From a virus, in IMG/VR virus record IMGVR_UViG_3300017917_000386, positions 1 to 33,911 of that record: a stretch of 33,911 bases of DNA. One strand, given 5' to 3'. Position numbers and translations under genes: made by a program. The first letter of the stretch is position 1, and each line of letters starts with the position of its first letter. Below, piece by piece: positions 2,911 through 32,330 of the stretch. The notes beneath the pieces are model-generated. The model was not told the origin of the DNA, made no database searches, and worked only from the letters and a program-made list of their open reading frames with translations.

Positions 2911-3296
2911 TAGTCATCACTTCCATACTTCTTTACAGTTTGTTGTGCAGCATGCCAAGCGCCTAGATCGTTCATTGAAGGAATTAGGCCCTCTCTCAAT
3001 CTTTGCTTTTGTTCTGAATATTCTGCTTCGGAAATTCTAGTTAGACCTGGAACAAATACTGCCTTACCATCTCCTGGATCTCCATGATGCATTGCTACTT
3101 TTCTAAGTTCTGCAATCTTACTAAGATCACCTTTTTCAGAAGGGATATTTAAAACTGATCCTTCACCATCTGTAAACCATTTGCCATCAGCCTTTTTGTA
3201 TACATAAAGACCCCAATCATACATTTTATCAATAACTTGACGTCTTACATTGCCAACAATTGGCTTACCAGTTTTTTTATTTATTAAAGAATCCAT
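2910..3296 (-). CDS. Hypothetical protein coupled to the portal gene
   Basis: The 128-residue protein (beginning MDSLINKKTGKPIVG) is not one I recognise. It is hydrophilic, with no membrane segment, and has a WFTDGEGSVLN block and a helical C-terminus ending in KKYGSDD. The stop overlaps the portal ATG by ATGA, so it is a likely head-assembly or head-packaging accessory. I chose the ATG at 3296 over an upstream GTG at 3302 because neither has a Shine-Dalgarno, while an extended -10 (TGGTATACT, read on minus) ends 7 nt before the ATG. That is the leaderless geometry seen repeatedly in this window. Confidence 0.75.
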   Translation of the reverse strand: MDSLINKKTGKPIVGNVRRQVIDKMYDWGLYVYKKADGKWFTDGEGSVLNIPSEKGDLSKIAELRKVAMHHGDPGDGKAVFVPGLTRISEAEYSEQKQRLREGLIPSMNDLGAWHAAQQTVKKYGSDD

Positions 3297-3303
3297 AACC
3301 ACA

Positions 3304-3312
3304 AGTATACCA
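3304..3312 (-). promoter_or_regulatory. Extended -10 promoter for the portal operon
   Basis: The minus strand reads TGGTATACT, ending 7 nt before the ATG of the 128-aa gene at 3296, which would start transcription at or next to the start codon. No clear -35 is present. It lies in the short gap just after the LamG-like gene and would let head genes be transcribed separately from it. Confidence 0.5.
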
Positions 3313-9591: not shown

Positions 9592-9624
9592 ATAAAACAC
9601 CTTTCAAAATTGGAATAGATAGCA

Positions 9625-9633
9625 AGTATAGCA
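9625..9633 (-). promoter_or_regulatory. Extended -10 promoter for the reductase gene
   Basis: The minus strand reads TGCTATACT, followed by about 33 nt of leader with an AAAGGTG ribosome binding site and the ATG at 9591. It has the same TGN-TATACT form as other promoters in the window, with no clear -35. Confidence 0.5.
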
Positions 9634-11114: not shown

Positions 11115-11123
11115 ATTATATCA
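11115..11123 (-). promoter_or_regulatory. Extended -10 promoter for the tandem oxygenase pair
   Basis: The minus strand reads TGATATAAT, a perfect extended -10, about 20 nt before the ATG at 11095 and overlapping the end of the upstream hydroxylase gene. There is no obvious -35. Confidence 0.45.
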
Positions 11124-13662: not shown

Positions 13663-15207
13663 TTAAGCCTTAAGATCGCCGTATACAACCCAAGAGTTTT
13701 CTGCTCTCTTGAATAATGTACATGATGACCATTGTGTACGTAATTTTAATCCTGGGGTAGCATTTACAGTTACTCCAGTATCTCCTGCTATTGTAATTAA
13801 ACCTGTATTGACTCCAAGAATATCAAGAGTAGTTCCAATTGGGAAGGCTACTGCTGAATTTGTTGGAATTGTAATTGTTACTGCTGAAGAGGAATCAACT
13901 TCAATTAATGAATCTCTTTCAGATAATGCTGAAAGTGTGTAGTTAGAAGTCTTTGAAATAATTGGAGTTCTTGAAGGAACTCCTTCTTTTGTCTGTGTTC
14001 CGTCTGAGAATACTACTCCAGATGCTGTTAAATTATTTACAGCAAGGTCATCTAGTGAACCCTCAGTAAAGTCTACAGTTGTTGTTGGTTCTGTTGTTAC
14101 ACCTTTAAATAATTTCCATTTATCAGTAGAAACATCTCTTACGATACCTGCATGTTTTGTTGTACCGTCATTATATGCTACGACAAGACCAAGGTCAACT
14201 GTATTTGCTGAATTTTGATGAGCAAGTTGAACCATATTATCTTCGATTGTAATGGTTGTTGCAGATGCTGCAAAGTTAGTACCATTTACAGTAAAGTCAC
14301 CATCAACTGTTAAATCTCCATCAAGAGTTACTGATGATGCGTCCATCATAACAATCTTTGATGTATCCGCAATACCGTGTACGCTTGTAGTATCTGAATT
14401 ATGGTCAGAAATATCGGAAGGTGTTGCTTTAGCGTCTAACTGTGTTTGAATTGCAGATGTCACACCATTAACATATGTTAGATCTGTCATATTTAATGAT
14501 ACTGGAAGTCCTCCCACTGTAACATTAACGCTTGGATCATTAATTGTTTTATTAGAAAGAGTTTCAGTTCCAGTAAGCGTTACTAGTGCTGCTGTATCAG
14601 AAATACCGTGTACGTTTGTGCTATCAGATGAGTGATCAGATACTAATCCTTCTGCATATGTCTTAGTTGACAATGCTGCTGTATCTGTAATACCGTGCAC
14701 ATTTGTGGTATCAGAATTGTGTGTTCCAACAATGATATCAATTGCTGGGTCTAGTGCTACTGTAGTAACATATCCCTCTAACACAGTATCAAGTGCGGTT
14801 GTGTCTATAAGATTTAATGTATTTGCAATTCCATGAACATTTGTTGAAGCCTCAGCGTGATCATTTAATAGACCAAGCATATCTGAAATTTCTTTCAATG
14901 TATCTAATGCTTCTGGAGCACCATCAATTAAGTTTGAAAGTTGAGAAACTGGAATATGTCCATTTGAGTCAAGCGTGGCTACTCCACCATTTGTTCCTTT
15001 TTGTGTTAGTGGTACATAATCGTCAAGTGTTCCACCAAGGTCTTCTAAATTCTTAAAGTAGGAGAGGTCTGACCAGTTGTTTACACCATCGCCGATTTTG
15101 AACTGGCTGGTATCTGATTCAAAACCAATTTCTCCTGCTGCTAAAATTGGATCTGCTGTAGTCCATTGTTCTGCAGTTCCTCTGCGTTGTTGCATTCTTG
15201 TTGCCAT
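13663..15207 (-). CDS. Tail fibre protein with Mtd-like N-terminal domain
   Basis: The 514-residue protein begins with a segment typical of the N-terminal domain shared by the major tropism determinant and many fibre proteins (QRRGTAEQWTT, ILAAGEIGFESDT, FKIGDGVNNWSDL, residues ~7-50), which attaches fibres to the tail. The middle holds four copies of a His/Asp repeat such as HNSDTTNVHGI. The last ~95 residues are a beta-rich module (from SNYTLSALSERDS to SWVVYGDLKA) that recurs at the end of the 22321 gene. The ATG at 15207 has GGAGGAG upstream, a leader with an ATGGG/CCCAT inverted repeat at 15222-15236 and an extended -10 at 15248-15256. It is likely a receptor-binding or fibre-shaft protein. 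No diversity-generating retroelement is visible. Confidence 0.82.
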   Translation of the reverse strand: MATRMQQRRGTAEQWTTADPILAAGEIGFESDTSQFKIGDGVNNWSDLSYFKNLEDLGGTLDDYVPLTQKGTNGGVATLDSNGHIPVSQLSNLIDGAPEALDTLKEISDMLGLLNDHAEASTNVHGIANTLNLIDTTALDTVLEGYVTTVALDPAIDIIVGTHNSDTTNVHGITDTAALSTKTYAEGLVSDHSSDSTNVHGISDTAALVTLTGTETLSNKTINDPSVNVTVGGLPVSLNMTDLTYVNGVTSAIQTQLDAKATPSDISDHNSDTTSVHGIADTSKIVMMDASSVTLDGDLTVDGDFTVNGTNFAASATTITIEDNMVQLAHQNSANTVDLGLVVAYNDGTTKHAGIVRDVSTDKWKLFKGVTTEPTTTVDFTEGSLDDLAVNNLTASGVVFSDGTQTKEGVPSRTPIISKTSNYTLSALSERDSLIEVDSSSAVTITIPTNSAVAFPIGTTLDILGVNTGLITIAGDTGVTVNATPGLKLRTQWSSCTLFKRAENSWVVYGDLKA

Positions 15208-15247: not shown

Positions 15248-15256
15248 ATTATAACA
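15248..15256 (-). promoter_or_regulatory. Extended -10 promoter for the Mtd-like fibre gene
   Basis: The minus strand reads TGTTATAAT, followed by a ~35-nt leader with a small inverted repeat and a strong Shine-Dalgarno before the ATG at 15207. Confidence 0.5.
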
Positions 15257-15264
15257 TCAATTTA

Positions 15265-15720
15265 TTAATTGAAATTATCTACTGCTGATCCACCATCTAA
15301 TGTAAGAGCAAAGTCAGTTGTACTTGGCCCTCCTCCATCAACTGGTGATCCTTGTGGGCTATTAAAACTTCCACCTTGCAAAAATGTTGATACTATTAAA
15401 CCACTTCCATCAATTGCTGTATCGTGAATGTGTTGTGGTAGATTTTGTGTATCATCAATTGTTGCTTGTGTATACCATGATCCCTCATAGTAAAAATTAA
15501 CTCTATTGGTTAATGTGTCTAGCCATTGTGTACCATTTACTGGTGACTCAGGAGCGGTAGTGCCAACAGCCATTGAACCAGTAAGGCTATCAACGTACTC
15601 CTTTGTTGCTGCATGTGCTGCAAGTGTTGGAGAGCCTACTGTTACTGCTCCACCAAAACTACCACCAGATGCAACCTGAAGGCCATTTTTTACCTTAAAG
15701 TCTTTATCTACTGTTGCCAT
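15265..15720 (-). CDS. Small fibre or fibre-associated protein
   Basis: The 151-residue protein begins MATVDKDFKVKNGLQVASGG, the same start as the 1013-residue fibre gene upstream (MATVNNKDFKVKHGLVVEG), so the two share an N-terminal attachment segment. ATKEYVDSL is the motif that often ends the N-terminal module in long phage fibres. The remainder is Gly/Ser/Thr-rich (WLDTLTNRVNFYYEGSWY, then a Gly-Asp tail). GGGAGTGG lies just before the ATG at 15720. It is probably a short fibre or a capping subunit. Confidence 0.7.
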   Translation of the reverse strand: MATVDKDFKVKNGLQVASGGSFGGAVTVGSPTLAAHAATKEYVDSLTGSMAVGTTAPESPVNGTQWLDTLTNRVNFYYEGSWYTQATIDDTQNLPQHIHDTAIDGSGLIVSTFLQGGSFNSPQGSPVDGGGPSTTDFALTLDGGSAVDNFN

Positions 15721-15746
15721 ATTACCACTCCCTCTTTATTTTTAAA

Positions 15747-18700
15747 TTAATCGTTGTATGCCAATAGTGTTGCTGCAACTAATATTTCTGAACTATCATT
15801 TGCTGTTGTAACACGTAAGCGGTACTTTGAAGTTGCTACATCCCAGTCTGCACTGATAGTCGCAAGTTCGTTTGCTGAAGTATAGATTGTTCCATACTCA
15901 ACAATTGCTATGTTATTTGAAGAATCAGTTGTTACTAATACTTCAGATACCTGTGATTTATTATTATTGTATACACGAACAAGATACTTTACGCTGCCTT
16001 CGTTTGTTCCAAAGGTGTGTGCTGTAACCGTTCCTGCTGTAGGGACATCTGTCCATGTTGCCTCTTCACGACGTGCCCATGTAATATCAATTGCTTTTGG
16101 AGCAATCTGATCTGCTGCAGTAATTGCATCAGTTACACGAGTATCTGTGAAGTAAAGGTTTGCAGATCCTTCTTCAATCGCATCTGTGTCAAGATCATCT
16201 ATCGCTGAAGAAATATCTCCTGCAACTGCTGCTTGAGCACGACTGTTTGTGAAGTATAGATTAGTTGTACCTTCTGTTAAATTATCTGTTGTTGAATCAG
16301 CAACACCATTTTCGGCAGTAATAGTTAATCCATTTTCATCGCCAGTGATTGTGATGTTTGATAACGTTGAATTTGTAAGAAGATTTGCTGCTGCAGTCTT
16401 TGCACGAGTATCTGTGTAGTAGTAGTTAACTGTGCCTTCTGCTACATCGTCTGTATCAAGTGCGTCTGCATAATCTTTTGCATCTTGCAATGCTGTTGAT
16501 GCTGCGCCTGCTGCGTCATATGCTGATGCGGTGGCATCTAGCGCTCTTTGATTTGTAAAGTAAAGATTTGTTGTACCTTCTGTTAGATCATCAGTGTCAG
16601 AATCTGCTACACCGTTTTCTGCAACAAAAGATAGATTTTTTGAAATTGGATCATAGGTTACAGAGATGTTTGTCTGTGTTCCACCCAATGCATTTCCAAT
16701 TGCATCTTTTGCACGATTTTCTGTAAAATATTGTGCTGTACCTTCTGCTACATCATCTGTATCAAGAGTTACGCTATCACCAAGTGATGTTGCATTTCCA
16801 TTAATTGTGATTGATGAATTTGTAAGTGATGAGTTAGCAATGTTTGAAATTGTATTGCTTGAAGCATCAATTGTCTTGTTTGTAAGAGTCTGAGAATCAG
16901 TTGTTCCTACGACATCTCCTGAAACTCCATGAACTCCAGATGATACGTTATGGTCATCAATAAGATTTGATGCTGTTCCTGCAGCGTCATACCAAGTATC
17001 AACAGTTGTACGGTCTACAGAAACTTCTAGACCATCTACTGTAATTCCTGTTCCTGCTGTTACAGAGCCTTGACCTGAGAACTGTGTCCAGTTTTGTCCT
17101 TCAAATGTTGTGAGGTAGTGATTTCCCTGTACCCAGGAAGTTGAACCATATTGAGTTCCTTCCATAACATAAACTGCTGCGCCAATAAGTTCTGTATATG
17201 CATCAGCATCTGTTGATCGTTGTGCAACAAGGTTTGTTGATTGAAGAACTAATTCATAAATACCATTTGAGCCAAATCCTCCAGGTGCTGTTTGATTAGT
17301 TAAAAGAATTCTATAGCCAGCATCTGCAGTTGTCAGAGCATCATGTCCATCAATTACTACTCCAACTAAATTTGTTAATCCTGTTTCTGTACCAAGGTCA
17401 ATATTTGTATTAGAAAGAAGATTTACTGCTGGCTTCCAGGCAAGACCAGAAACTGCATTATCTACATATGAGTGAGTAGCAATTTCATTTTCTGCTGAAA
17501 CTGAACCAACATATGCTGATCCATCTGGGTTAAGAACAATGTCACCAGAATCTGTTGTAAGTGTTAAATCATCACTAGCATATACATTTAGATTTCCAGT
17601 ACCATCATCGGAAACCTTAGAACCATTTGTTCCAAACAAAAGATCTCCAGAAATTGTCTTGTTTGCAATTGTCTGTGGATCTGTTATGCCAACAATATCA
17701 CTGATTGTTCCGTGTGCATATGTTGAGTTTGTGTGTGTATCAAGGTTTCCTTGTACTGTGCTTGCTGCTCCTGCTGCATCGTAATTTACTGCAAGACCGT
17801 CTGCATAAGAAACTGCATTGTTATAAGCACCTTGTGCTGATCCTGCTGGATCGTAGTTAGATGCAAGTCCATCTGCATAATCTTTTGCATTTTGTTCGGC
17901 ATCAGCAGCATCTCCTGCTGCATCATACCAAGAATCTACTGTTGTGCGATTAATCTCAATTTGATTAGATCCATCAGTTTGAAGACCAGTTCCTAGTTGA
18001 ACATCAAATGTGCTTCCAGAATACTCAATACCAGTTCCAAGAACATTACTTATTGCAGTTACTGCACGTCCATCTTGGAAGTATAGATTAGTTGTTCCCT
18101 CATCAAGATCGTCTGTTGTAGAGTCGTCTACTCCGTTTTCGGCAGTGATATTAAGTACTCCGCCAATTTCTTGAATAACAATGTTTGTTTGTGTTGAACC
18201 AGTAAGTACATCCTTTACTCTTTCTGTAGTAAAGTACTTATTGGTTAAGCCCTCTGTAAGGTCATCAGTTGTAGAATCTGCTACGCCATTCTCTGCTGTG
18301 ATTGTAAGATTATTTGAGCCATCCTTTGTGATAGAAATATTGCTCTTTGTTGCATCTGTAAGAAGTGTTGCAGCAATTTCTTTTGCCTTGTCTTCACTTG
18401 TAAGTTTATTTCCAGAAGAAACAGAGTTAAGATAGACATGTCCACTTCCATTATTTGGATTAAGGATAATATCATCACCTGAATGAATATCAAGATCTCC
18501 ATTTACAATTCCTAATGAATAATTTTCATCTGATCCAACATATACTGTAGGAGCCATTACTGCATCTTCTGCTGTTATGTATCCCGCAGCAAAGTCACCA
18601 TTTTCATCACGCTTAACTACTGTGTTTGGGGTATTCGCAGAATCTCCTCCACCACCTGCAAGTGCAATAATATAAGCATCGTCTGCTGCACTTTTCTTAA

Positions 18701-18788
18701 GTACGTCAAAACCATCTACGGTTGCATTGGTGCCTTCTACGACTAACCCATGCTTTACTTTAAAATCTTTATTATTTACTGTTGCCAT
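15747..18788 (-). CDS. Long tail fibre protein with repeated shaft motifs
   Basis: The 1013-residue protein is rich in Thr, Asn, Asp, Ala and Gly and has no hydrophobic segment. After the N-terminal FKVKHGLVVEG module it contains at least seven copies of the motif D-x-L-x-E-G-x-x-N-x-Y-F-T-x-x-R-A (for example DDLTEGTTNLYFTNQRA), a well-known shaft repeat of caudovirus fibres, interleaved with TAENGVADSTT and YDAAGAA segments and with NKTI repeats like those of the 13663 gene. The C-terminus (from RREEATWTDVP to ILVAATLLAYND) is a beta-rich globular end. AAGGAG precedes the ATG at 18788. It is likely the main trimeric fibre; the receptor is unknown. Confidence 0.85.
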   Translation of the reverse strand: MATVNNKDFKVKHGLVVEGTNATVDGFDVLKKSAADDAYIIALAGGGGDSANTPNTVVKRDENGDFAAGYITAEDAVMAPTVYVGSDENYSLGIVNGDLDIHSGDDIILNPNNGSGHVYLNSVSSGNKLTSEDKAKEIAATLLTDATKSNISITKDGSNNLTITAENGVADSTTDDLTEGLTNKYFTTERVKDVLTGSTQTNIVIQEIGGVLNITAENGVDDSTTDDLDEGTTNLYFQDGRAVTAISNVLGTGIEYSGSTFDVQLGTGLQTDGSNQIEINRTTVDSWYDAAGDAADAEQNAKDYADGLASNYDPAGSAQGAYNNAVSYADGLAVNYDAAGAASTVQGNLDTHTNSTYAHGTISDIVGITDPQTIANKTISGDLLFGTNGSKVSDDGTGNLNVYASDDLTLTTDSGDIVLNPDGSAYVGSVSAENEIATHSYVDNAVSGLAWKPAVNLLSNTNIDLGTETGLTNLVGVVIDGHDALTTADAGYRILLTNQTAPGGFGSNGIYELVLQSTNLVAQRSTDADAYTELIGAAVYVMEGTQYGSTSWVQGNHYLTTFEGQNWTQFSGQGSVTAGTGITVDGLEVSVDRTTVDTWYDAAGTASNLIDDHNVSSGVHGVSGDVVGTTDSQTLTNKTIDASSNTISNIANSSLTNSSITINGNATSLGDSVTLDTDDVAEGTAQYFTENRAKDAIGNALGGTQTNISVTYDPISKNLSFVAENGVADSDTDDLTEGTTNLYFTNQRALDATASAYDAAGAASTALQDAKDYADALDTDDVAEGTVNYYYTDTRAKTAAANLLTNSTLSNITITGDENGLTITAENGVADSTTDNLTEGTTNLYFTNSRAQAAVAGDISSAIDDLDTDAIEEGSANLYFTDTRVTDAITAADQIAPKAIDITWARREEATWTDVPTAGTVTAHTFGTNEGSVKYLVRVYNNNKSQVSEVLVTTDSSNNIAIVEYGTIYTSANELATISADWDVATSKYRLRVTTANDSSEILVAATLLAYND

Positions 18789-18803
18789 TTTTTATCTCCT
18801 TAG

Positions 18804-19250
18804 TTATGCCTTAAGTCCAATACGTGCATAACGTACTGTTATAGGCTTGATTGCAGGATCTGGAGTGACTGTTATAGCCACGGTATTTCCAGTCCGTGAG
18901 ACGCTAATGGTGCCAATATTCCCATCATTGTCGATAGTGCCATATTCGCTGACTGATACATCTGTACCGTCAACTAAAATTGTTATTTCAGTGGCATAAT
19001 ACTTATTCCCACCGCTTGAAGTTTTTGCGATAGAGATAATGTATTTAACCATTCTCCATACTGTTGCATCAAAGTTATCGATGACTGTTGCATTCTCAAT
19101 ACCTTGGATTGTATTTTCATTATTACCATAAGATCCAAGATCTAATGCTTGACCAGTTGCGGTATCAATTAAATCTTCATAATCTTCCTGGGTAGGACGG
19201 TCACCTGTTTGGAATTTTGCTTTTACTTGGGCCAATGATATTTTTGACAT
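18804..19250 (-). CDS. Fibre-associated or baseplate protein
   Basis: The 148-residue protein has an N-terminal segment LAQVKAKFQTGDRPTQEDYEDLIDTATGQ that is common at the attachment end of phage fibre proteins, then a beta-rich body (YYATEITILVDGTDVSVSEYGTI) resembling the C-terminal part of the 1013-residue fibre (SEVLVTTDSSNNIAIVEYGTI). It may therefore be a short fibre sharing the same end domain. No Shine-Dalgarno precedes the ATG at 19250, but TGTTATAAT ends exactly 6 nt upstream, so the mRNA should be leaderless. Confidence 0.72.
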   Translation of the reverse strand: MSKISLAQVKAKFQTGDRPTQEDYEDLIDTATGQALDLGSYGNNENTIQGIENATVIDNFDATVWRMVKYIISIAKTSSGGNKYYATEITILVDGTDVSVSEYGTIDNDGNIGTISVSRTGNTVAITVTPDPAIKPITVRYARIGLKA

Positions 19251-19256
19251 GTCTAA

Positions 19257-19265
19257 ATTATAACA
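19257..19265 (-). promoter_or_regulatory. Extended -10 promoter, leaderless geometry
   Basis: The minus strand reads TGTTATAAT, then TTAGAC, then the ATG at 19250. The 6-nt gap puts the transcription start at the initiator codon. Confidence 0.55.
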
Positions 19266-19280
19266 CCCATTTTGTAAATG

Positions 19281-19505
19281 TTAAAGTATATAGTTACTGT
19301 AACCAATCACTTGAAGTGGAATTGCTGGGGGATTGCCAAACAATGATTCTATAGCAATACTAGTGAATCTAACTCTAAAAGGAAGTATTTCATTAACTCT
19401 AACTTCTCGTACTGGATTCTTAATTTTAACTATTGGATAGTCTACTGACTCAATTGTTTTTGTTTTATTGTTTAGATCATTGATTATTTGTGCAGTAGCA
19501 ATCAT
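19281..19505 (-). CDS. Small protein coupled to the BppU-like gene
   Basis: The 74-residue protein is not recognised; it has charged, beta-prone sequence (VREVRVNEILPFRVRFTSIAIES) and no membrane segment. Its ATG overlaps the stop of the upstream 134-residue gene (TAATG at 19503-19507), so it is translationally coupled and probably acts with that baseplate/fibre component. Confidence 0.6.
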   Translation of the reverse strand: MIATAQIINDLNNKTKTIESVDYPIVKIKNPVREVRVNEILPFRVRFTSIAIESLFGNPPAIPLQVIGYSNYIL

Positions 19506-19909
19506 TAGTCAGTTACATCTTCAAGGATTTTCATGCTACCCTGACAAACTGTCCAAACTCTTGATGAATCAGTTAACTGAATATCGAAGATATCTCCTGT
19601 TTCAAGATTATGTGATTGTTCTGCTTCAAGCCATACTGTAAATTCTCCTGGACCATCGTTTGCATCTGGTGCTGGAGTAAGTGCCATAATCGTTGTTGCA
19701 TCATCAGTAATAGCACCATCATTCTTAGGATCGTTTGGTCTTTTAATTTTCATAGAAATTGTCCAGTCTGGAATATTAAGGGCAACCTTATCGTCATCTG
19801 TTGCATATACCCTGAACCCAGAGGTGTCTCCTCTTACAACTGTCCAAAGAACTGTAGGTGGCTTAATACCAACATTATATGATGATGCAGATCCTCTTGT
19901 AATAGCCAT
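19505..19909 (-). CDS. BppU-N-like small beta-sandwich protein, copy 1
   Basis: The 134-residue protein shares a pattern with two other genes here (23720-24064 and 24918-25298): a WxxxRGDT element near residues 23-30 followed by alternating strands and ending in a G-x-(I/M)-x-(I/V) strand. This resembles the immunoglobulin-like N-terminal domain of baseplate upper proteins such as BppU, which plug receptor-binding proteins onto the baseplate. The ATG at 19909 has no Shine-Dalgarno, but TGGTATAAT ends exactly 6 nt upstream. The family assignment rests on motif resemblance only. Confidence 0.6.
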   Translation of the reverse strand: MAITRGSASSYNVGIKPPTVLWTVVRGDTSGFRVYATDDDKVALNIPDWTISMKIKRPNDPKNDGAITDDATTIMALTPAPDANDGPGEFTVWLEAEQSHNLETGDIFDIQLTDSSRVWTVCQGSMKILEDVTD

Positions 19910-19915
19910 TATTTT

Positions 19916-19924
19916 ATTATACCA
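19916..19924 (-). promoter_or_regulatory. Extended -10 promoter, leaderless geometry
   Basis: The minus strand reads TGGTATAAT, then AAAATA, then the ATG at 19909; the gap is 6 nt. Confidence 0.55.
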
Positions 19925-19926
19925 TC

Positions 19927-20187
19927 TTAAGGATTATTTCCCTTAAGTTCCCCCCATGTTAATCCGCCACTAAGCAAAGAGTCTAATCCAAGATCATCAA
20001 TTAATGCTGGAATAGTTACTTCAATTGCTTCCGTTAAATCTTCTGTTTGTTGATCAATTGTATTTCCAAATTCATCCAAAACATTATCTACAACTTCTGC
20101 AATTCCTTGAATATCCTGTTGGACATTTACGTTATCTGTCGCTAAAGGATATGGAATGTTACGTTTTGGTGTTGATCCGCTTGCCAT
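19927..20187 (-). CDS. Small helical protein, candidate fibre connector
   Basis: The 86-residue protein has an N-terminal basic Pro/Tyr segment (STPKRNIPYPLATDNVNVQQDI) common in phage fibre-attachment regions, followed by an acidic heptad-like helix (DNVLDEFGNTIDQQTEDLTEAIE). It may be a short trimeric coiled-coil piece that links fibres. The ATG at 20187 has no Shine-Dalgarno, and TGTTATAAT ends exactly 6 nt upstream. Confidence 0.6.
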   Translation of the reverse strand: MASGSTPKRNIPYPLATDNVNVQQDIQGIAEVVDNVLDEFGNTIDQQTEDLTEAIEVTIPALIDDLGLDSLLSGGLTWGELKGNNP

Positions 20188-20193
20188 AATAGA

Positions 20194-20202
20194 ATTATAA
20201 CA
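20194..20202 (-). promoter_or_regulatory. Extended -10 promoter, leaderless geometry
   Basis: The minus strand reads TGTTATAAT, then TCTATT, then the ATG at 20187. It diverges from the lysin promoter on the other strand. Confidence 0.55.
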
Positions 20203-20226
20203 TAATTATAAATATTATTCTATGGT

Positions 20227-20256
20227 TTGACTTTTGACCAAAATTCCTGTTATACT
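20227..20256 (+). promoter_or_regulatory. Strong promoter for the lysin gene
   Basis: TTGACT (20227-20232), an 18-nt spacer and TATACT (20251-20256), with the TGT extension directly before the -10. This is the closest match to a full -35/-10 promoter in the window. A second TTGACC lies 11 nt before the -10, echoing the TGTCA-N11 element of the microgene promoters. Confidence 0.75.
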
Positions 20257-20264
20257 AGTACTTG

Positions 20265-20281
20265 ACACCCCAAAAGGGTGT
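20265..20281 (+). promoter_or_regulatory. Inverted repeat at the start of the lysin transcript
   Basis: ACACCC (20265-20270) and GGGTGT (20276-20281) flank a CAAAA loop. It begins about where the transcript should start (roughly 20263), so it could be a stabilising 5' hairpin or an operator that blocks the promoter. An AAGGAGGA ribosome binding site follows at 20293-20300. Confidence 0.5.
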
Positions 20282-20303
20282 TATCGTTTTCTAAGGAGGA
20301 AAC

Positions 20304-20855
20304 ATGATCAACTTTATGAAGAATAACAGAGAAGTCATTGGAATACTCAGTATAGTAGTGCTTGTCAGCGCTTTATCGAATGCTGCCAATGCAAATGAAA
20401 GAAATAATTTATTGACAAAAAGCAGTATAGATGACCCTTCAGCCACGAAAGTGGCTTTAAGTGTTTCTAAGGCAGAAATGTTAAAGAAATACTCAAATGC
20501 TGTATTTTTAACTGATAAAGACCTTAAAAATGTCTTAGAGTTAGTTGGATTTACAGGTAAAGACTTAAAGGAAGCATGGGCTATAGCAAAGAGGGAGTCT
20601 AATGGACGACCACTAGCCTTTAACGGAGATAAGACAACTGGAGATAACTCTTATGGTCTATTCCAAATTAACATGCTTGGAGATCTAGGTCCAGAAAGAA
20701 GAGAAAAGTTTGATTTAAAATCCAATGCCGAACTTTTTAATCCAGTCAGAAACGCAGAAATTGCATTTTATATGACTGATGGTGGAAAAAATTGGGATGC
20801 CTGGAAAGGCATGACCCCAAGAGCCGTTAAATGGCTTTCGGAGTTTCCAGCATAA
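20304..20855 (+). CDS. Secreted lysozyme-like/lytic transglycosylase lysin
   Basis: The 183-residue protein has a signal peptide: positively charged residues 1-9, a hydrophobic core at ~11-24 and a likely cleavage after ANA (residue ~30). The domain at ~75-180 matches the lysozyme-like SLT fold, with the catalytic Glu98 in AKRESNG, the SYGLFQIN block at 116-123 and an aromatic NWDAW end. It would cut the glycan of peptidoglycan, at lysis or at entry. The signal suggests Sec export rather than release by a large holin pore. It is the only plus-strand gene within the fibre cluster, with its own promoter and a strong ribosome binding site, and it ends directly against the stop of the convergent 20856 gene (no gap). 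Confidence 0.82.
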   Translation: MINFMKNNREVIGILSIVVLVSALSNAANANERNNLLTKSSIDDPSATKVALSVSKAEMLKKYSNAVFLTDKDLKNVLELVGFTGKDLKEAWAIAKRESNGRPLAFNGDKTTGDNSYGLFQINMLGDLGPERREKFDLKSNAELFNPVRNAEIAFYMTDGGKNWDAWKGMTPRAVKWLSEFPA

Positions 20856-21419
20856 TTAAAACCAAGTAGATAACTGATATTTGGTTCCAGAAAGAACTGG
20901 CTTCTCTACCAGACCATAAACATAGTTTGATGGATATATGAGAAGTTGGTTCTTTTTTGGTTTAATGGTGACATCAAATCTTGGAAAGTATATTTCTCCA
21001 CCTTCATAGTTATCATTAATAAAATACTTTAGTGAAACCCTTTTAAACTTGTTTCCAATAATATCTTCATGATAATATCTTTCTTGATCACTCTGAAGAT
21101 ATCTAAAAAATACAAAAAGATCAAAGTCCTCAAACGTTATATAATTATTTTTAGCATAGTCTTTAGATTTTTCTAAAAATATCGAATTTGCCATATTAGA
21201 TATGGTATGCAAAAGTATATCTCCGCCATCTTCTTCATTAATCTTTTTTACCTTATTAAAATTTACAATACCAAAGTGTTCCATAGTCTTTATCGCATCA
21301 GATGATAGTTTCCACTGAATTAGCGAATGAGGCAGTTCAGAGATATCGTTCATATCTGCAATTGTGCTTTCAAGATCTACATCTAAATCATATAAATGTA
21401 TTGCTGGAAAAATTTCCAT
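20856..21419 (-). CDS. 2OG-Fe(II) oxygenase-like protein with substituted active-site residues
   Basis: The 187-residue protein resembles the 7031 enzyme in the core: His117 and Asp119 (YYHEDIIG), YEGGEIYFPRF, KPKKNQLLIYPS and a final KYQLSTWF. Two expected catalytic positions differ: the distal iron-binding His is Tyr168 (VYGLV) and the 2OG-binding Arg is Lys180. Lys can bind 2OG in some relatives, but Tyr is not a usual iron ligand here, so it may be inactive or use another residue. I chose the ATG at 21419 because it overlaps the zinc-ribbon stop (TAATG) with GAGGGG 8 nt upstream; longer frames begin at 21425 and 21440. Confidence 0.7.
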   Translation of the reverse strand: MEIFPAIHLYDLDVDLESTIADMNDISELPHSLIQWKLSSDAIKTMEHFGIVNFNKVKKINEEDGGDILLHTISNMANSIFLEKSKDYAKNNYITFEDFDLFVFFRYLQSDQERYYHEDIIGNKFKRVSLKYFINDNYEGGEIYFPRFDVTIKPKKNQLLIYPSNYVYGLVEKPVLSGTKYQLSTWF

Positions 21420-21619
21420 TACCATTTCCCCTCTGGACAAGTTGCATCTTCTAATTTAGTTTTTAATTGCATAAAGCATCCACATTTTTTACATTGATTA
21501 CTTAATTTTATCAGACTTGGACATGATTTGCAAATCTCAAATCGCTCATTGGCAAGACTTTCTAAAGATCTTTTTTTATTAGGATTCAGCAAGTCCCAAG
21601 GCTTTACACTTTTTGACAT
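21419..21619 (-). CDS. Small zinc-ribbon protein, copy 1 (DUF6171-like)
   Basis: The 66-residue protein has five cysteines, four in two CxxC knuckles (CKSC and CKKC) plus a later CP. The end CGCFMQLKTKLEDATCPEGKW is nearly the same as that of the 26718 gene (CGCFMKLKSTLKQASCPIGKW). Such miniature zinc ribbons occur in many aquatic phages; no function is established that I know of. It is coupled by TAATG to the oxygenase-like gene downstream. Confidence 0.78.
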   Translation of the reverse strand: MSKSVKPWDLLNPNKKRSLESLANERFEICKSCPSLIKLSNQCKKCGCFMQLKTKLEDATCPEGKW

Positions 21620-21620
21620 A

Positions 21621-21827
21621 CTATAGAATGTTTCTTAGTCTGTTTGTAACATCAGTAATTGTATCTATTTCTTCTTCTGTTGGAATATACTCTAAACCTT
21701 CTTCTTCATTTATGACCCAGTCAGTATCCCAAACAAATGGGTTAGCACGACGAATCATATCCTCACCAATACTAAAGGTATCTGATTCTGGATTATACTC
21801 AACCATTACATAATATAGTTTGCTCAT
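21621..21827 (-). CDS. Small hypothetical protein
   Basis: The 68-residue acidic protein (VMVEYNPESDTFSIGEDMIRR, ending DVTNRLRNIL) has no recognisable family. AAGGAG is 7-8 nt before the ATG at 21827. It stops 1 nt before the zinc-ribbon gene starts, so it belongs to that short operon. Confidence 0.65.
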   Translation of the reverse strand: MSKLYYVMVEYNPESDTFSIGEDMIRRANPFVWDTDWVINEEEGLEYIPTEEEIDTITDVTNRLRNIL

Positions 21828-21848
21828 TTTTTCTCCTTATTTTTATTT

Positions 21849-22310
21849 TTAACCTGGACATCTACAACATCTATAGTTTGTTGGACATCCACCACAAAGA
21901 GAGCAGGCAGCGCTATTTGCACCTGGACCACCACAAAGATTTGCACAACTGACAGAACTTGGACCAACTGCGTAGTAGTATCCAGATGGTACAAAACTAA
22001 ATACAGAAAATGGCGTAAAGGTAAATACGCTAAATGGAGTAAAGCCAAATACTGAAAATGGAGTAAAAGAAAAAACATAAGATACATATGAGACATTTGA
22101 TTCATAGTCAACTAGGGTATCTGCAACTGGTGATTGACTTTTAACCTTTGTTCCAAGATTTGAGTCTCCAGTATTTTCTGTTGTATTACCAGTATTAGTT
22201 AGATGTGCACTTGTTAAATCTGTTGTTGCCTCAGTTGTAGTTTTTCCAACAATGTTAGGAACTTTAATCATTCCTTTTAGAGCAGATACTATGCCAGTTA
22301 TCCAAAGCAT
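21849..22310 (-). CDS. PASTA-octapeptide repeat-cysteine-rich protein
   Basis: The 153-residue protein has three modules. Residues ~15-75 look like a PASTA domain (VPNIVGKTTTEATTDL, then TKVKSQSPVADTLVDYESNV), a fold known for binding peptidoglycan and related beta-lactams. Residues 77-108 are aromatic octapeptide repeats (FSVFGFTP, FSVFTFTP, FSVFSFVP) like those of the FN3-Hint protein. Residues 122-151 hold eight cysteines (SCANLCGG, ACSLCGGC, CCRCPG) that could bind metal or form disulfides. GGGGGAAT precedes the ATG at 22310. It is probably a virion surface protein contacting the host cell wall. It shares its design of Ig-like or PASTA domain, octarepeat and special C-terminus with the 12396 gene. 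Confidence 0.75.
   Translation of the reverse strand: MLWITGIVSALKGMIKVPNIVGKTTTEATTDLTSAHLTNTGNTTENTGDSNLGTKVKSQSPVADTLVDYESNVSYVSYVFSFTPFSVFGFTPFSVFTFTPFSVFSFVPSGYYYAVGPSSVSCANLCGGPGANSAACSLCGGCPTNYRCCRCPG
21987..22082 (-). repeat. In-frame octapeptide repeats of the F-x-V-F-x-F-x-P type
   Basis: Four 24-nt units code for YVFSFTP, FSVFGFTP, FSVFTFTP and FSVFSFVP. They are more diverged at DNA level than the 12936-13043 repeats, with the same amino-acid pattern. Confidence 0.8.
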
Positions 22311-22320
22311 CTTATTCCCC

Positions 22321-23139
22321 CTAAGCCGTCAAATCGCCAATAAGTACCCAAGAGTCATCTGCAATTTTCACTAAGGTGCCTGCAGAATATTGGACTGATA
22401 ACTTTTTGTTATTATATTTACTATTAATTGTAACACCAACGGCTGGTGAAATTGTTGTTTGAACTGATCCAATTTGTAAAATATCAATTCTTGTATTTGT
22501 TGCAAAACCAGCAGTTGATTGTAATGGAACTGTAATAATGTTTGTTCCTGTAGATACATTTGTAATAACTACTTTTCCAGCATCGGAAGCCTGTAGGGTA
22601 TAGTCGGTTGTAACTACTGATGGATTAATCGATTGTGACAGAGTTTCTACGTCACCTATAACACCTGTGACCGTATCATTAACTGTTTTTACTGAGTTTG
22701 GCGTGGCAGCCTTACTTGTGGATGTAGATGTTACTGAGTCTTCAAGTTGAACCTTACCTGCTGCTGTTGTAGTTCCTGCAGAAACAAGATCTGTCACTGG
22801 TGACCAAGTCATTCCAAATGTATTTGTTGAGTCTGCTACTAAAACTTCATTATTATTTCCTACTGGAAAATTATCAACAACGTTATTTGATTTTGCAACA
22901 ATCATATCTCCCTTAGCATCAACAATAGATGCTTGGATTCCAGAGGCTGCAGTAAGATCTGCAATATCTGATTCAATTTGTAATAGGTATCCAGCAATAG
23001 ATTCTGCTGGTACGTCCTCTGTTGTTGCTGGAACAGACTCTTGACCATAATGATAAAGTCTTAGGGCTGCTTTAATATCTGCATCATCTTCGTATGCAGG
23101 AATTTGTGTGGGTTTAATAGAACCAATATTTTCAGACAT
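22321..23139 (-). CDS. Tail fibre protein sharing a C-terminal module with the Mtd-like fibre
   Basis: The 272-residue protein starts MSENIGSIKPTQIPAYEDDADI, continues with an EVLVADSTNTFGMTWSPV block common in fibre shafts, and ends in a module of ~95 residues (DYTLQASDAGKVVITN to SWVLIGDLTA) clearly related to the end of the 13663 gene. I chose the ATG at 23139, 11 nt after GAGGT, over a TTG at 23148. An extended -10 lies at 23162-23170. It is probably a fibre with an exchangeable tip. Confidence 0.75.
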   Translation of the reverse strand: MSENIGSIKPTQIPAYEDDADIKAALRLYHYGQESVPATTEDVPAESIAGYLLQIESDIADLTAASGIQASIVDAKGDMIVAKSNNVVDNFPVGNNNEVLVADSTNTFGMTWSPVTDLVSAGTTTAAGKVQLEDSVTSTSTSKAATPNSVKTVNDTVTGVIGDVETLSQSINPSVVTTDYTLQASDAGKVVITNVSTGTNIITVPLQSTAGFATNTRIDILQIGSVQTTISPAVGVTINSKYNNKKLSVQYSAGTLVKIADDSWVLIGDLTA

Positions 23140-23161
23140 TTTAAGCAATCACCTCTTTGAA

Positions 23162-23170
23162 ATTATACCA
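23162..23170 (-). promoter_or_regulatory. Extended -10 promoter
   Basis: The minus strand reads TGGTATAAT with a leader of about 22 nt holding an AGAGGTG ribosome binding site before the ATG at 23139. Confidence 0.5.
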
Positions 23171-23720
23171 CAATTGATATAAATAAATGAACAGTCACTG
23201 CAGAATCTAGGTCTTGCCAAGTTCCAGATGCTGACTCTACTGCTGACATATTTATAACAAGAGTGTCCCCTTCTCCAGTTAATGTTGGTATAGACATTGA
23301 TGACGCTATTGGATTTGTATGTGCAATGCTATACCTTACTGCAAAGTTTTCTGCAGATAAACCAGTTGTTGTTGTTATATTTGCAACAGGTATTGAAATA
23401 GTTGCAGACCCGTCAGTAAAAGTTGTATATCTTACTTCTGTATAAATTGTTGGAGAAATTTTTAAAATTTCAATCCAAGTATTTCCGCTTGGCTGAGAAA
23501 CATATTGATACATATATCCATAATTTGATCCAGGTGATGAATTAATATATAAATCGTTTAAACTTGGAGTTTGTCCAATATTAATTACGTTTGGATTTCC
23601 AAGCCCCACAAATACCTGACTTCCTCTATTACCTTGAGGTCCTATATCAAGAACTAGATCAATGAATTCTGGCGATCCTAAAACTGTGATTTGATCTGTG
23701 TTTACTAATACGTCAGGCAT
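23163..23720 (-). CDS. Fibre-associated beta-rich protein
   Basis: The 185-residue protein has a DIGPQGNRGSQVFVGLGNP segment near residue 27 of the kind often seen in phage fibre and collar proteins, then beta-prone Ser/Thr/Ile-rich sequence. The ATG at 23720 overlaps the stop of the upstream BppU-like gene (TAATG). No known domain is certain. Confidence 0.68.
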   Translation of the reverse strand: MPDVLVNTDQITVLGSPEFIDLVLDIGPQGNRGSQVFVGLGNPNVINIGQTPSLNDLYINSSPGSNYGYMYQYVSQPSGNTWIEILKISPTIYTEVRYTTFTDGSATISIPVANITTTTGLSAENFAVRYSIAHTNPIASSMSIPTLTGEGDTLVINMSAVESASGTWQDLDSAVTVHLFISIVV

Positions 23721-24064
23721 TATGCACCTGTAACCTGCTCAGTAACAGATATTGTTCCAGTTAATAATGTGTGAACAATGTTTGCTGAGTTGCTTATTTG
23801 AACGTCATATACATAACTTGTTCCTGCTGGAATTGTTGCTCCTGTTGTAGCAGATATTGTACAAGTAATCAAGTTATTTACAGTATCGACAGTTGCTGTA
23901 GCGGTATATTGTGTTGCGCCAGATCCTCTTGCGGTTGCGATAGTAAAAATTGCGGAGTAGCCAGAAACAGTGAATGGAGAACTATCTGAGTTTTTGGGTC
24001 TAATGACAAACTGATAGGTGTCACCCTTGTAGTAGTTAAAATTATAAGTTGCTGGAAATGCCAT
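23720..24064 (-). CDS. BppU-N-like small beta-sandwich protein, copy 2
   Basis: The 114-residue protein has FNYYKGDTYQFVIRP near residue 10 (the counterpart of the RGDT element in the other two copies), then strands ending LLTGTISVTEQV. The fold expected is that of the baseplate BppU N-terminal domain. AAGGAGG is 5 nt before the ATG at 24064, with an extended -10 upstream. It is coupled to the following fibre gene. Confidence 0.62.
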   Translation of the reverse strand: MAFPATYNFNYYKGDTYQFVIRPKNSDSSPFTVSGYSAIFTIATARGSGATQYTATATVDTVNNLITCTISATTGATIPAGTSYVYDVQISNSANIVHTLLTGTISVTEQVTGA

Positions 24065-24079
24065 AGTTCCTCCTTGAAT

Positions 24080-24088
24080 ATTATACCA
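24080..24088 (-). promoter_or_regulatory. Extended -10 promoter
   Basis: The minus strand reads TGGTATAAT. The leader to the ATG at 24064 is about 9 nt after the expected start and contains AAGGAGG. Confidence 0.5.
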
Positions 24089-24090
24089 TG

Positions 24091-24804
24091 TTACATAACA
24101 GAAACATAGATAGATTTGATTTGAGCCATAGAGTCCATGTCTGTCCTAAGTTGTGGAACTACCCCACTGACCCTGTTTAGTTCTTTATCAATATAAAAGT
24201 TATGCGTTGTACTTAAGTCATAGGTGTACTGATATTTGAGTGAGGCTACAAAAGATACTACCTCATCTTGGCTATCTGGAAAATACGATCTAGCCCATAC
24301 CTCAGTATTATTAGAAAATGTCGTTATGTTAAAGTTATAAACTACTTGAACCTGAGTTCCAACATTTAGGTGTTTGAAGTTCAATCTTCTCGTTTCGGCA
24401 TTATAAAGGCTTGTATCGTTTTCTGGCAAAAATAATTCTATGGTATTTTTTCCAAGACCATCTACGTGAAAAGATACCCACCCATCATCTCCACTATCTA
24501 CGCCAAGTTTAAATGTTAGTAGATTTAGATTATCGTAATTTGCCCATCCTATTTTTTGTCCATAGATTGGCGTTGATGACTTTCCCTCTGGCCCCTGTGG
24601 CCCTGGCAAACCTTGTGGACCAGTTTCACCTCTTGGCCCTTTGGGTCCTGCCAAACCATCCTTTCCTGGGCTTCCAGGGGGTCCCTGAGGGCCTGGAACA
24701 GGAATGTAGGATATGGAGTTAGCCGAACCAGTTTCTTGTGATTGTTTAACCTGTTTAGCATAACTGCTTTCACCTGGAAAGTTCATGCTTTTAGAAACTG
24801 CCAT
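24091..24804 (-). CDS. Collagen-like fibre protein
   Basis: The 237-residue protein has an N-terminal ~37-residue segment, then twelve uninterrupted Gly-X-Y triplets (residues ~38-74, beginning [14 protein letters not shown]), enough for a short collagen-like triple helix. A C-terminal beta-rich domain with Trp/Asp-rich strands ([22 protein letters not shown]) follows. Proline occurs in the Y position in at least three triplets (GPP, GSP, GLP) and lysine in one (GPK), the positions hydroxylated in animal collagen. Collagen-like phage proteins usually form trimeric fibre stalks. I chose the second of two adjacent ATGs (24804) because GGAGG is only 1 nt from the first. Confidence 0.85.
24583..24695 (-). 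repeat. Gly-X-Y collagen-like tract
   Basis: Twelve consecutive codon triplets begin with glycine, with Pro dominant at X and Pro, Gln, Lys, Arg, Asp, Thr, Ala and Glu at Y. Confidence 0.85.
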
Positions 24805-24816
24805 CATTCCTCCAGA

Positions 24817-24918
24817 TTATTTTTTTATTTTTTGAATCTTTACATCTCCAGTGGAGGTAGTTACCTTTACCACATCTGGTAAATTATTTTTTTTATTAGA
24901 TATTTTTATGATAGCCAT
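24817..24918 (-). CDS. 33-residue basic peptide gene coupled by TAATG
   Basis: Hand-translated: MAIIKISNKKNNLPDVVKV followed by TTSTGDVKIQKIKK. The ATG overlaps the stop of the 24918-25298 gene as TAATG, and the stop lies 12 nt before the collagen-like ATG, so it fills the gap exactly. It is Lys-rich and beta-prone, with no family recognised. Confidence 0.55.
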   Translation of the reverse strand: MAIIKISNKKNNLPDVVKVTTSTGDVKIQKIKK

Positions 24919-25298
24919 TATAGTGTGTTACTAACATTTCCAATCACAGTAATAACTCCAACTAGAGGTGTCCAAACTGTATTATCAGAAAATGTTACCT
25001 TTAGGTCAAAATTTAATTCTGCTACTCTTCCAGAATATAGGGTTCCCCAATTAGCGCTAATATCAGAGGGGATAGAAATTTCAGCATATCCATCTCCTTC
25101 AGTAACAATTAGTTCGTCAATAATGTCTGTTTTAGGGTCATAGGCACTAGAAACATAATTCCAGGTATCAGTATCGTAATTTGTTATTTCATCATTTTGT
25201 AAAAAGTCTATACGCAGCGTAGAGGTGTCCCCACGGACAATGTTCCATTTTACATTTACGGGATCAGATCCAAATACCTCTGGGCAGCAAGTTGTCAT
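24918..25298 (-). CDS. BppU-N-like small beta-sandwich protein, copy 3; first gene of the fibre operon
   Basis: The 126-residue protein has WNIVRGDTSTLRIDF near residue 18, closely matching copy 1 (WTVVRGDTSGFRVYA), and ends TPLVGVITVIGNVSNTL. Copies 1 to 3 appear to be paralogues of a baseplate/fibre-anchoring domain. The ATG at 25298 has no Shine-Dalgarno, but TGGTATAAT ends exactly 6 nt upstream, so it should start a leaderless transcript. Confidence 0.65.
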   Translation of the reverse strand: MTTCCPEVFGSDPVNVKWNIVRGDTSTLRIDFLQNDEITNYDTDTWNYVSSAYDPKTDIIDELIVTEGDGYAEISIPSDISANWGTLYSGRVAELNFDLKVTFSDNTVWTPLVGVITVIGNVSNTL

Positions 25299-25304
25299 AA
25301 TGAG

Positions 25305-25313
25305 ATTATACCA
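25305..25313 (-). promoter_or_regulatory. Extended -10 promoter at the head of the fibre operon, leaderless geometry
   Basis: The minus strand reads TGGTATAAT, then CTCATT, then the ATG at 25298. The position where a -35 would sit is inside the terminator hairpin of the upstream holin gene. Confidence 0.6.
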
Positions 25314-25323
25314 GCATATAAAA

Positions 25324-25370
25324 GCCGAAACCTAGGTAGGTGGGTATGAGAGACTTACCTAGGAATCGGC
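25324..25370 (-). terminator. Rho-independent terminator after the holin-like gene
   Basis: Arms 25356-25370 and 25324-25338 pair as 5 bp (GCCGA/TCGGC) plus 8 bp (CCTAGGTA/TACCTAGG) with a symmetric 2-nt internal loop, and a TTTTAT run follows on the minus strand. It separates the candidate holin unit from the fibre operon. The interval 25371-25571 beyond it holds a TGTCC-N4-TGTCC element and an AT-only tract, with no gene. Confidence 0.75.
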
Positions 25371-25390
25371 AATAAAATTATATCATAATA

Positions 25391-25404
25391 GGACAAAAAG
25401 GACA
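25391..25404 (-). promoter_or_regulatory. TGTCC-N4-TGTCC direct-repeat element, copy 4
   Basis: The minus strand reads TGTCCTTTTTGTCC, matching three plus-strand copies in the microgene region. It is the only copy on the structural side. Confidence 0.4.
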
Positions 25405-25482
25405 TGTGATATTAAAGTTTATCAAATCGTTATAATCAGGTTTATAAATTTGGCATCAAGAAAACGAAACTTAGTGTATACT

Positions 25483-25560
25483 TTTATTATATATATTATA
25501 TTAAAAGAATATACTATAAATTAATATATTATATATATTATATATAAGTATATATTATAT
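25483..25560. other. Almost pure A/T tract
   Basis: About 78 bp with only one to three G or C, dominated by TATATTA-type steps. It lies between the holin stop and the terminator. It would melt and bend easily. It carries no open reading frame and no DnaA box. Confidence 0.6.
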
Positions 25561-25571
25561 ATAGAAAAAAA

Positions 25572-27783: not shown

Positions 27784-27938
27784 ATAGACCACCATCCTTG
27801 TACATTATAGAAATACCCTACTTTTTCTTTGTAGGTTTTCATCATTTCAATCTCTTTAACCCAGTTTATTGAGTGAGTCTCCAAACCACATTTAGGGCAT
27901 GGCCCTGGACCAAGATCCTTATATACGTGTTCGCACAT
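27780..27938 (-). CDS. 52-residue zinc-knuckle protein
   Basis: MCEHVYKDLGPGPCPKCGLETH followed by a helix and WWSI. Cys2, His4, Cys14 and Cys17 make a compact zinc site. The reading frame stays open upstream to 28040, but that region encodes a better Cys-knuckle ORF in another frame (27946-28065), so I chose the ATG at 27938. Confidence 0.6.
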   Translation of the reverse strand: MCEHVYKDLGPGPCPKCGLETHSINWVKEIEMMKTYKEKVGYFYNVQGWWSI

Positions 27939-27945
27939 AATTTTA

Positions 27946-28065
27946 TTATACCTCAGAATCTGAAAAAGTTTCTTCATGCCACTGGGTCTGTTCCCAGCCA
28001 CAAAGTGTACAAGAGTATACAGTCTTTGTCTTGTAAACATCTGTCCAGTATTTATGTAAATGCAT
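27946..28065 (-). CDS. 39-residue zinc-knuckle microprotein
   Basis: Hand-translated: MHLHKYWTDVYKTKTVYSCT then LCGWEQTQWHEETFSDSEV. CTLCGW with nearby His residues is a typical zinc-knuckle signature of phage microproteins. It is 7 nt upstream of the 52-residue gene in the same direction and has TATACT 13 nt or so upstream. Confidence 0.55.
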   Translation of the reverse strand: MHLHKYWTDVYKTKTVYSCTLCGWEQTQWHEETFSDSEV

Positions 28066-32151: not shown

Positions 32152-32180
32152 TTGATATTTTTCCCCATATCTGCTAAGAT
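32152..32180 (+). promoter_or_regulatory. Promoter P5, leaderless geometry
   Basis: TTGATA (32152-32157), a 17-nt spacer, TAAGAT (32175-32180) with TGC before it, then 6 nt, then the ATG at 32187. The gene has no Shine-Dalgarno, so transcription probably starts at the initiator codon. Confidence 0.65.
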
Positions 32181-32186
32181 TATTAC

Positions 32187-32330
32187 ATGACACTAAAAAA
32201 ATCCCCTGAGGAATTAAGACGACTAATGGAGTTACGACGCTCCAACGCTGCCTCTGCTGTGCCATCAAAAAAAGTTTATAAAAGAATTAGACAAAGCAGT
32301 AAGAAAATGTTAGAATTAGATAACGAGTAG
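32187..32330 (+). CDS. 47-residue basic protein from a leaderless mRNA
   Basis: Hand-translated: MTLKKSPEELRRLMELRRSN then AASAVPSKKVYKRIRQSSKK and MLELDNE. It is strongly basic and helical, as expected of a small nucleic-acid-binding protein. There is no ribosome binding site; it relies on P5. Confidence 0.62.
   Translation: MTLKKSPEELRRLMELRRSNAASAVPSKKVYKRIRQSSKKMLELDNE

Follow-up and report, generated by a model that had tools for sequence, protein, structure and literature searches.

Genomic setting

We analysed a window of 33,911 bases, the whole of the virus record IMGVR_UViG_3300017917_000386 (positions 1–33,911; 36% GC), for its extended −10 promoter boxes (TGN-TATAAT, the nine-base word TGNTATAAT) and their distance from gene starts. 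The minus strand carries the portal gene (1312–2910), a pre-portal gene, the gene of a 1230-amino-acid (aa) protein and a class II ribonucleotide reductase gene (7561–9600), and tail and tail-fibre genes follow one another as far as 25298; small genes lie on the plus strand in the right part of the window. Genes are named below by the coordinate of their start.

The portal is 46–48% identical to those of Stanwilliamsviridae Streptomyces phages, and the window shares a homologous portal and the late-gene order with that family. On these features we classify the virus as an actinophage related to Stanwilliamsviridae, at a portal identity that leaves family membership itself undecided; the window would be a piece of an actinophage genome of ~100–130 kb, from an uncultured freshwater-type lineage related to that family. 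A megablast search of phage records with the first 24 kb gave neither a match nor a closely related cultured phage at the DNA level, and no useful cultured actinophage relative was found for the 19250 protein. For comparison, 160 related loci were taken from viral contigs using the 13663–15207 protein and the portal as queries, and orthologues were placed by protein alignment without use of the motif.

Extended −10 boxes at a fixed distance from gene starts

The window holds ten copies of TGN-TATAAT against 3.9 expected, a number reached in none of 100 shuffles; plain TATAAT occurs 64 times. All eight minus-strand sites listed in the original prediction were recovered where it had placed them, and two more exact copies were found, at 25377–25385 (minus) and at 5799–5807 (plus, within a gene). 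Each box has TGN directly 5′ of TATAAT and a weak or absent −35, the form of a sigma-70 extended −10 promoter.

Exact TGNTATAAT-N6-ATG occurs four times, every time at the start of an open reading frame (ORF; 25298, 20187, 19909 and 19250), and dinucleotide shuffles contain a mean of 0.07 and a maximum of two copies (n = 300). A Shine-Dalgarno (SD) sequence is absent upstream of all four. The motif observation is thus real, and the exact 6-nucleotide (nt) gap without SD that had been claimed for these genes holds. The near absence of −35 boxes, also claimed, bears out as well: the promoter at 19257 is the sole site with a good one (TTAACA, 16-nt spacer).

Further starts have similar geometry (Table 1). 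The TATACT predicted at 3304 is present, its box directly adjoining the stop codon of the upstream gene. The pre-portal ORF (2910–3302) is listed from GTG 3302, but its true start is most likely ATG 3296, in which case this promoter too would be of leaderless type, with a gap of 7. The start at 27938 falls outside the structural part. The plus-strand site P5 has the 6-nt gap ascribed to it, but its box is not TATAAT.

Table 1 Promoter boxes, predicted start types and associated hairpin in the window
Feature	Position	Strand	Gene and remarks
TGG-TATAAT-ctcatt-ATG	25296..25313	−	Predicted leaderless start; gene 24918–25298 (126 aa, weak phrog_1084)
TGT-TATAAT-tctatt-ATG	20185..20202	−	Predicted leaderless start; gene 19927–20187
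TGG-TATAAT-aaaata-ATG	19907..19924	−	Predicted leaderless start; gene 19505–19909 (phrog_1084)
TGT-TATAAT-ttagac-ATG	19248..19265	−	Predicted leaderless start; gene 18804–19250 (weak tail-connector match)
TGG-TATACT-tgtggtt-ATG	3294..3312	−	Leaderless-type start, gap 7, ATG 3296; pre-portal gene (phrog_9394)
AGG-TATAAT-aaaatt-ATG	27936..27953	−	Leaderless-type start at 27938; 52-aa ORF ending 27780
P5, TGC-TAAGAT-tattac-ATG	32172..32189	+	47-aa ORF from ATG 32187; −35-like TTGATA 17 nt upstream
TGG-TATAAT	24080..24088	−	Putative short-leader promoter, 15 nt before gene 23720–24064; SD aaggagga
TGG-TATAAT	23162..23170	−	Putative short-leader promoter before gene starting 23148 or 23126; SD gaggtga
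TGT-TATAAT	15248..15256	−	Putative leadered promoter, ~41 nt before tail-protein gene 13663–15207; SD
TGA-TATAAT	11115..11123	−	Putative leadered promoter, ~20 nt before gene 10439–11095; SD
TGC-TATACT	9625..9633	−	~24 nt before ribonucleotide reductase gene 7561–9600
Hairpin then U-rich stretch	25322..25370	−	−22.8 kcal/mol, z −6.8; just before 25313 promoter
Second TGATATAAT box	25377..25385	−	64 nt upstream of 25313 box, directly before hairpin

Conservation in related viruses

Across the related loci, 47 of 210 non-redundant TGNTATAAT (TG.TATAAT) sites have an ATG at gap 6 (other gaps, 1–10); all 47 frames stay open for at least 17 codons, and neither GTG nor TTG shows a peak. Orthologues of 19250 carry the box at gap 5–7 (gap 6) in 15/15 cases despite diverged upstream DNA, with an SD-like core matched in 2/15. 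The footprint of this set reaches 2.0 bits in all six hexamer columns and only 0.1–0.6 bits at spacer bases −6 to −2. The box recurs at gap 5–7 in 10/13 orthologues of 19909, all TG-extended, at gap 6–7 without SD in 5/5 non-redundant related starts of 25298, and at gap 6–7 before the ATG of the pre-portal gene in 28/30 relatives. For the SD-led genes 18788, 15720, 15207 and 13637, a box at gap 5–7 is found in 0/112 orthologues. Conservation of the hexamers among relatives, on which the original prediction had staked the leaderless reading, therefore favours that reading. None of the 52 non-redundant related leaderless-type promoters carries an SD, and a −35 is not enriched in them (7/52 at spacers of 16–18 versus 9/52 and 3/52 at the control spacers 8–10 and 24–26).

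Eleven related records of 82–123 kb contain 81 copies of the exact pattern and four of the reversed one, on both strands and spread over the whole genome; the promoters do occur in the structural half, as had been proposed, but are not special to it. In 10/10 cultured Stanwilliamsviridae phages of several genera, TATAAT, TATACT or TACAAT precedes the head-to-tail adaptor gene at a gap of exactly 6. TATAAT also stands at gap 6–7 before a 122-aa late gene in 8/8, and at gap 7 before gp25 of Blueeyedbeauty, which adjoins the portal gene of that phage. In the distant Rhodococcus phage NiceHouse the feature was not seen.

The same box ahead of predicted short leaders

The description of these promoters as uniform is accurate for the −10 box but not for the gap, as the boxes at 24080, 23162, 15248 and 11115 lie 14–41 nt before SD-bearing genes. 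Relatives share this arrangement to differing degrees. The box of 24064 is kept at gap 15 in 2/3 relatives; a promoter-like box lies 11–43 nt upstream of 15207 in 24/32 (2 antisense), 21–55 nt upstream of 9600 in 24/25 (antisense 0) and upstream of 11095 in 7/34 (antisense 0). There would so be one promoter kind with two leader kinds, either none or a short one with SD.

Three genes of the tail-fibre region (25298, 24064 and 19909, all minus strand) encode phrog_1084-family proteins; two of them (25298 and 19909) have leaderless-type starts and one (24064) an SD. The 24064 protein also gives a sub-threshold match to an LtfC-like beta-sandwich.

Transcription units

We mapped promoters as sense matches to TGN-TA[TAG]A[AC]T at most 100 nt upstream of orthologues, with antisense matches as control. 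A box is present at 25298 (5/5 orthologues), 20187 (5/5), 19909 (10/10), 19250 (11/15), 7007 (17/17) and 3302 (15/17), and at 15207 and 9600 in the fractions given above. It is essentially absent at 19505 (0/8), 18788 (0/19), 15720 (0/28), 13637 (1/28) and 2910 (0/15). Antisense matches are low for most genes, the higher values being 5/5 at 20187, equal to sense, and 4/10 at 19909; DNA beside these two genes may hold a divergent promoter. On the plus strand, 20227–20283 contains a divergent TTGACT-N18-TATACT promoter with TG, and a hairpin forms part of the leader for gene 20304–20855, which encodes an SLT-type lysozyme. A scan that requires a −35 returned 56 promoters against 72 in shuffles and is uninformative for −35-less promoters.

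Because this map is conserved, units of ~1–3 genes, each with its own promoter, are supported. The original prediction of many small promoters in place of one long late operon thus stands in its first half; its second half is unproven, as a terminator scan from 20187 to 18804 found none. Read-through transcripts overlapping the units could consequently form there, and nested transcripts appear as likely as separate ones. The 25298 unit, by comparison, is isolated by a strong hairpin (25322–25370), a probable terminator or else the end of a short RNA.

The second TGATATAAT box together with this hairpin could be read as a terminator or as the gene for a ~50-nt RNA. At 25390–25570, ~180 nt of very AT-rich DNA with many TATATAAT-like stretches separates two minus-strand genes. 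A terminator ahead of leaderless promoters was considered as a general rule and rejected, being present in only 6/52 related cases, five of them within one gene family. In that family, whose genes start MATTVYE or MPTTVYE, five related loci have a terminator hairpin followed immediately by TGNTATAAT-N6-ATG, the clearest case of a new unit directly after a terminator.

A single long late transcript, with the TATAAT-N6 boxes as minor internal boosters and most mRNA as leadered read-through, is a possible but doubtful account. The genes from 20187 to 12396 are tightly packed and co-directional, and the lack of a detected terminator between 20187 and 18804 suits it. However, read-through mRNA would initiate poorly at the four genes without SD, relatives retain the boxes at precisely these genes and lack them at the neighbours, and two units are set apart from what precedes them, 20187 by an upstream neighbour on the opposite strand (20304–20855) and 25298 by the hairpin.

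Likely host and sigma specificity

A portal with 81% identity is encoded on a contig of one Actinomycetota metagenome-assembled genome (MAG). The order of this MAG would fit freshwater Nanopelagicales; genomes of the order measure 1.2–2.2 Mb, with 42–46% GC in the three sampled. In the MAG and two further genomes of the order, TANNNT stands at gap 6 before 29/215, 70/366 and 70/375 ORF starts (13–19%), the respective backgrounds being 2.1, 4.3 and 6.1. The likely hosts thus appear to make leaderless mRNAs of the same geometry, so the phage pattern would represent host-type leaderless expression. Exact TGNTATAAT-N6-ATG was not found in the MAG, and TATAAT-N6-ATG is not above control in 21 genomes of the order. 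The missing TATAAT excess would by itself speak against the host link, but the degenerate TANNNT at gap 6 accounts for it. Two genomes of the order show a leaderless −10 consensus of TAGRCT, with T favoured at −6 and a pyrimidine at −1.

A phage-encoded or phage-modified sigma specificity that reads TGNTATAAT, with the late genes as its regulon, is unlikely. It would account for a phage word unlike the hexamer of the host order, which is mostly TAGRCT and rarely preceded by TG (6/70 and 3/70), and WhiB-like proteins are encoded by 10 of the 11 long relatives. Yet those relatives, which are perhaps incomplete, contain no Sigma70_r2 and no Sigma70_r4 over the cut-off, a domain search that leaves a very diverged phage sigma possible. 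Moreover, the boxes occur in all genome parts, beyond late genes, and TGNTATAAT is the textbook housekeeping extended −10, for which an AT-rich phage needs no special factor to arrive at a stronger consensus.

WhiB is an actinobacterial protein, and WhiB proteins contact the sigma factor. T4 AsiA acts on Escherichia coli sigma-70, blocking −35-dependent promoters while extended −10 promoters stay open. A phage factor, for example a WhiB-like protein on sigma region 4, might likewise block −35-dependent host promoters and spare extended −10 ones, which could be why the phage word differs from the host's TAGRCT, a conjecture to which we assign little probability. WhiB was not found in this 34-kb fragment. 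If the conjecture is true, late mRNAs would also be leaderless and bypass SD-dependent initiation.

A −35-less promoter model for virion genes

It is highly improbable that the boxes serve in leadered mRNAs as AU-rich elements for translation initiation or mRNA stability: the window is AT-rich in general, but TG and TATAAT are invariant within a nine-base word whose gap is fixed, a promoter-like pattern, the spacer shows no conservation, host TANNNT stands at the same gap, and the same word precedes SD-led unit heads at a longer one. Chance matches in AT-rich DNA, where TATAAT alone is common, are excluded by the shuffles and by conservation in relatives, and their probability is negligible.

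Leaderless starts from extended −10, −35-poor promoters are well supported because the boxes are conserved in relatives, SD sequences are absent at exactly these genes and the likely host order uses the same 6-nt spacing. In the model we propose, transcription of the tail-fibre and head genes on the minus strand begins at a succession of extended −10 promoters of host-sigma type (TGN-TATAAT) that all but lack a −35, and every promoter heads a unit of ~1–3 genes. In one class of units, headed by 25298, 20187, 19909, 19250 and 3296, with 27938 elsewhere, the −10 lies 6–7 nt before ATG; RNA polymerase would start at or beside the A of ATG, and the resulting leaderless mRNAs would be translated by actinobacterial ribosomes without SD. 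The start codon would then probably form the very 5′ end of several virion-gene mRNAs. In the second class (24064, 23126, 15207, 11095 and 9600) the distance from the −10 to the gene is 14–41 nt, reaching 55 nt in relatives, and an SD is present in most of these short leaders. Transcription start, host sigma use, leaderless translation and expression timing are what we infer from these patterns.

Several observations weigh against this model. At 19909, 3/13 relatives lack a box at gap 5–7, one of the three having an SD and a farther box, and at 20187 the gap ranges from 6 to 9 among relatives, so that gaps 8–9 make a 1–3-nt leader possible there. The host link consists of one binned MAG contig, WhiB in the relatives (none in the window) and kinship to Streptomyces phages. 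Finally, the host order uses a word other than TGNTATAAT at its own leaderless genes, the one unexplained point. With these weighed, we consider it very probable that −35-less extended −10 promoters head small units, leaderless at one class and short-leadered at the other, and strong host-sigma promoters in an AT-rich phage are the simplest reading.

Relation to known systems and significance

Leaderless (TA-led) genes, with a −10 ~12 bp upstream, are common in Actinobacteria, at >20% (Zheng et al. 2011, PMC3160421), and in mycobacteria a 5′-terminal ATG or GTG is both necessary and sufficient (Shell et al. 2015, PMC4633059). The phage starts resemble these genes in a −10 at a fixed short distance (~6–7 nt here), the lack of SD and an ATG at the presumed 5′ end, a start mode also seen in the putative host order. 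They differ in using a near-perfect extended TGNTATAAT, whereas high-GC actinobacteria use degenerate TANNNT, and in having only ATG starts, in phage virion and other phage genes. Cluster O mycobacteriophages have predicted leaderless SigA promoters (PMC4351075), with +1 as the first start-codon base, including one in the structural operon. Those few promoters came from a −35/−10 model in five close phages, whereas the boxes described here are many, are poor in −35 elements and could be traced through the orthologues of a diverse family.

The Stanwilliamsviridae phages Blueeyedbeauty, Yaboi and Samisti12 have the ribonucleotide reductase and portal-flanking genes in the same order and TATAAT or TATACT at gap 6–7 before the adaptor, pre-portal and 122-aa late genes; unlike them, the window has 36% GC and belongs to an uncultured freshwater-type lineage with no close cultured DNA relative. 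A literature search found no paper on leaderless genes with 'Planktophila' and nothing on how freshwater actinobacterial phages start their genes, and the first part of a paper on cultured Nanopelagicales phages treats WhiB and sigma factors, not promoters. The leaderless start mode itself is ordinary for actinobacteria; here it would recur throughout a phage family whose promoter word is not the one most used in the likely host order.

Freshwater actinobacteria are abundant, as are their phages, and most of both are uncultured; a fixed −10/ATG spacing yields a promoter map for them without transcriptomics. It also pins gene starts, here moving the pre-portal start to 3296 and revealing a 52-aa gene at 27938. 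As virion genes with predicted leaderless starts are shared by freshwater phages and cultured phages of Streptomyces, a cultured system in which to test them exists.

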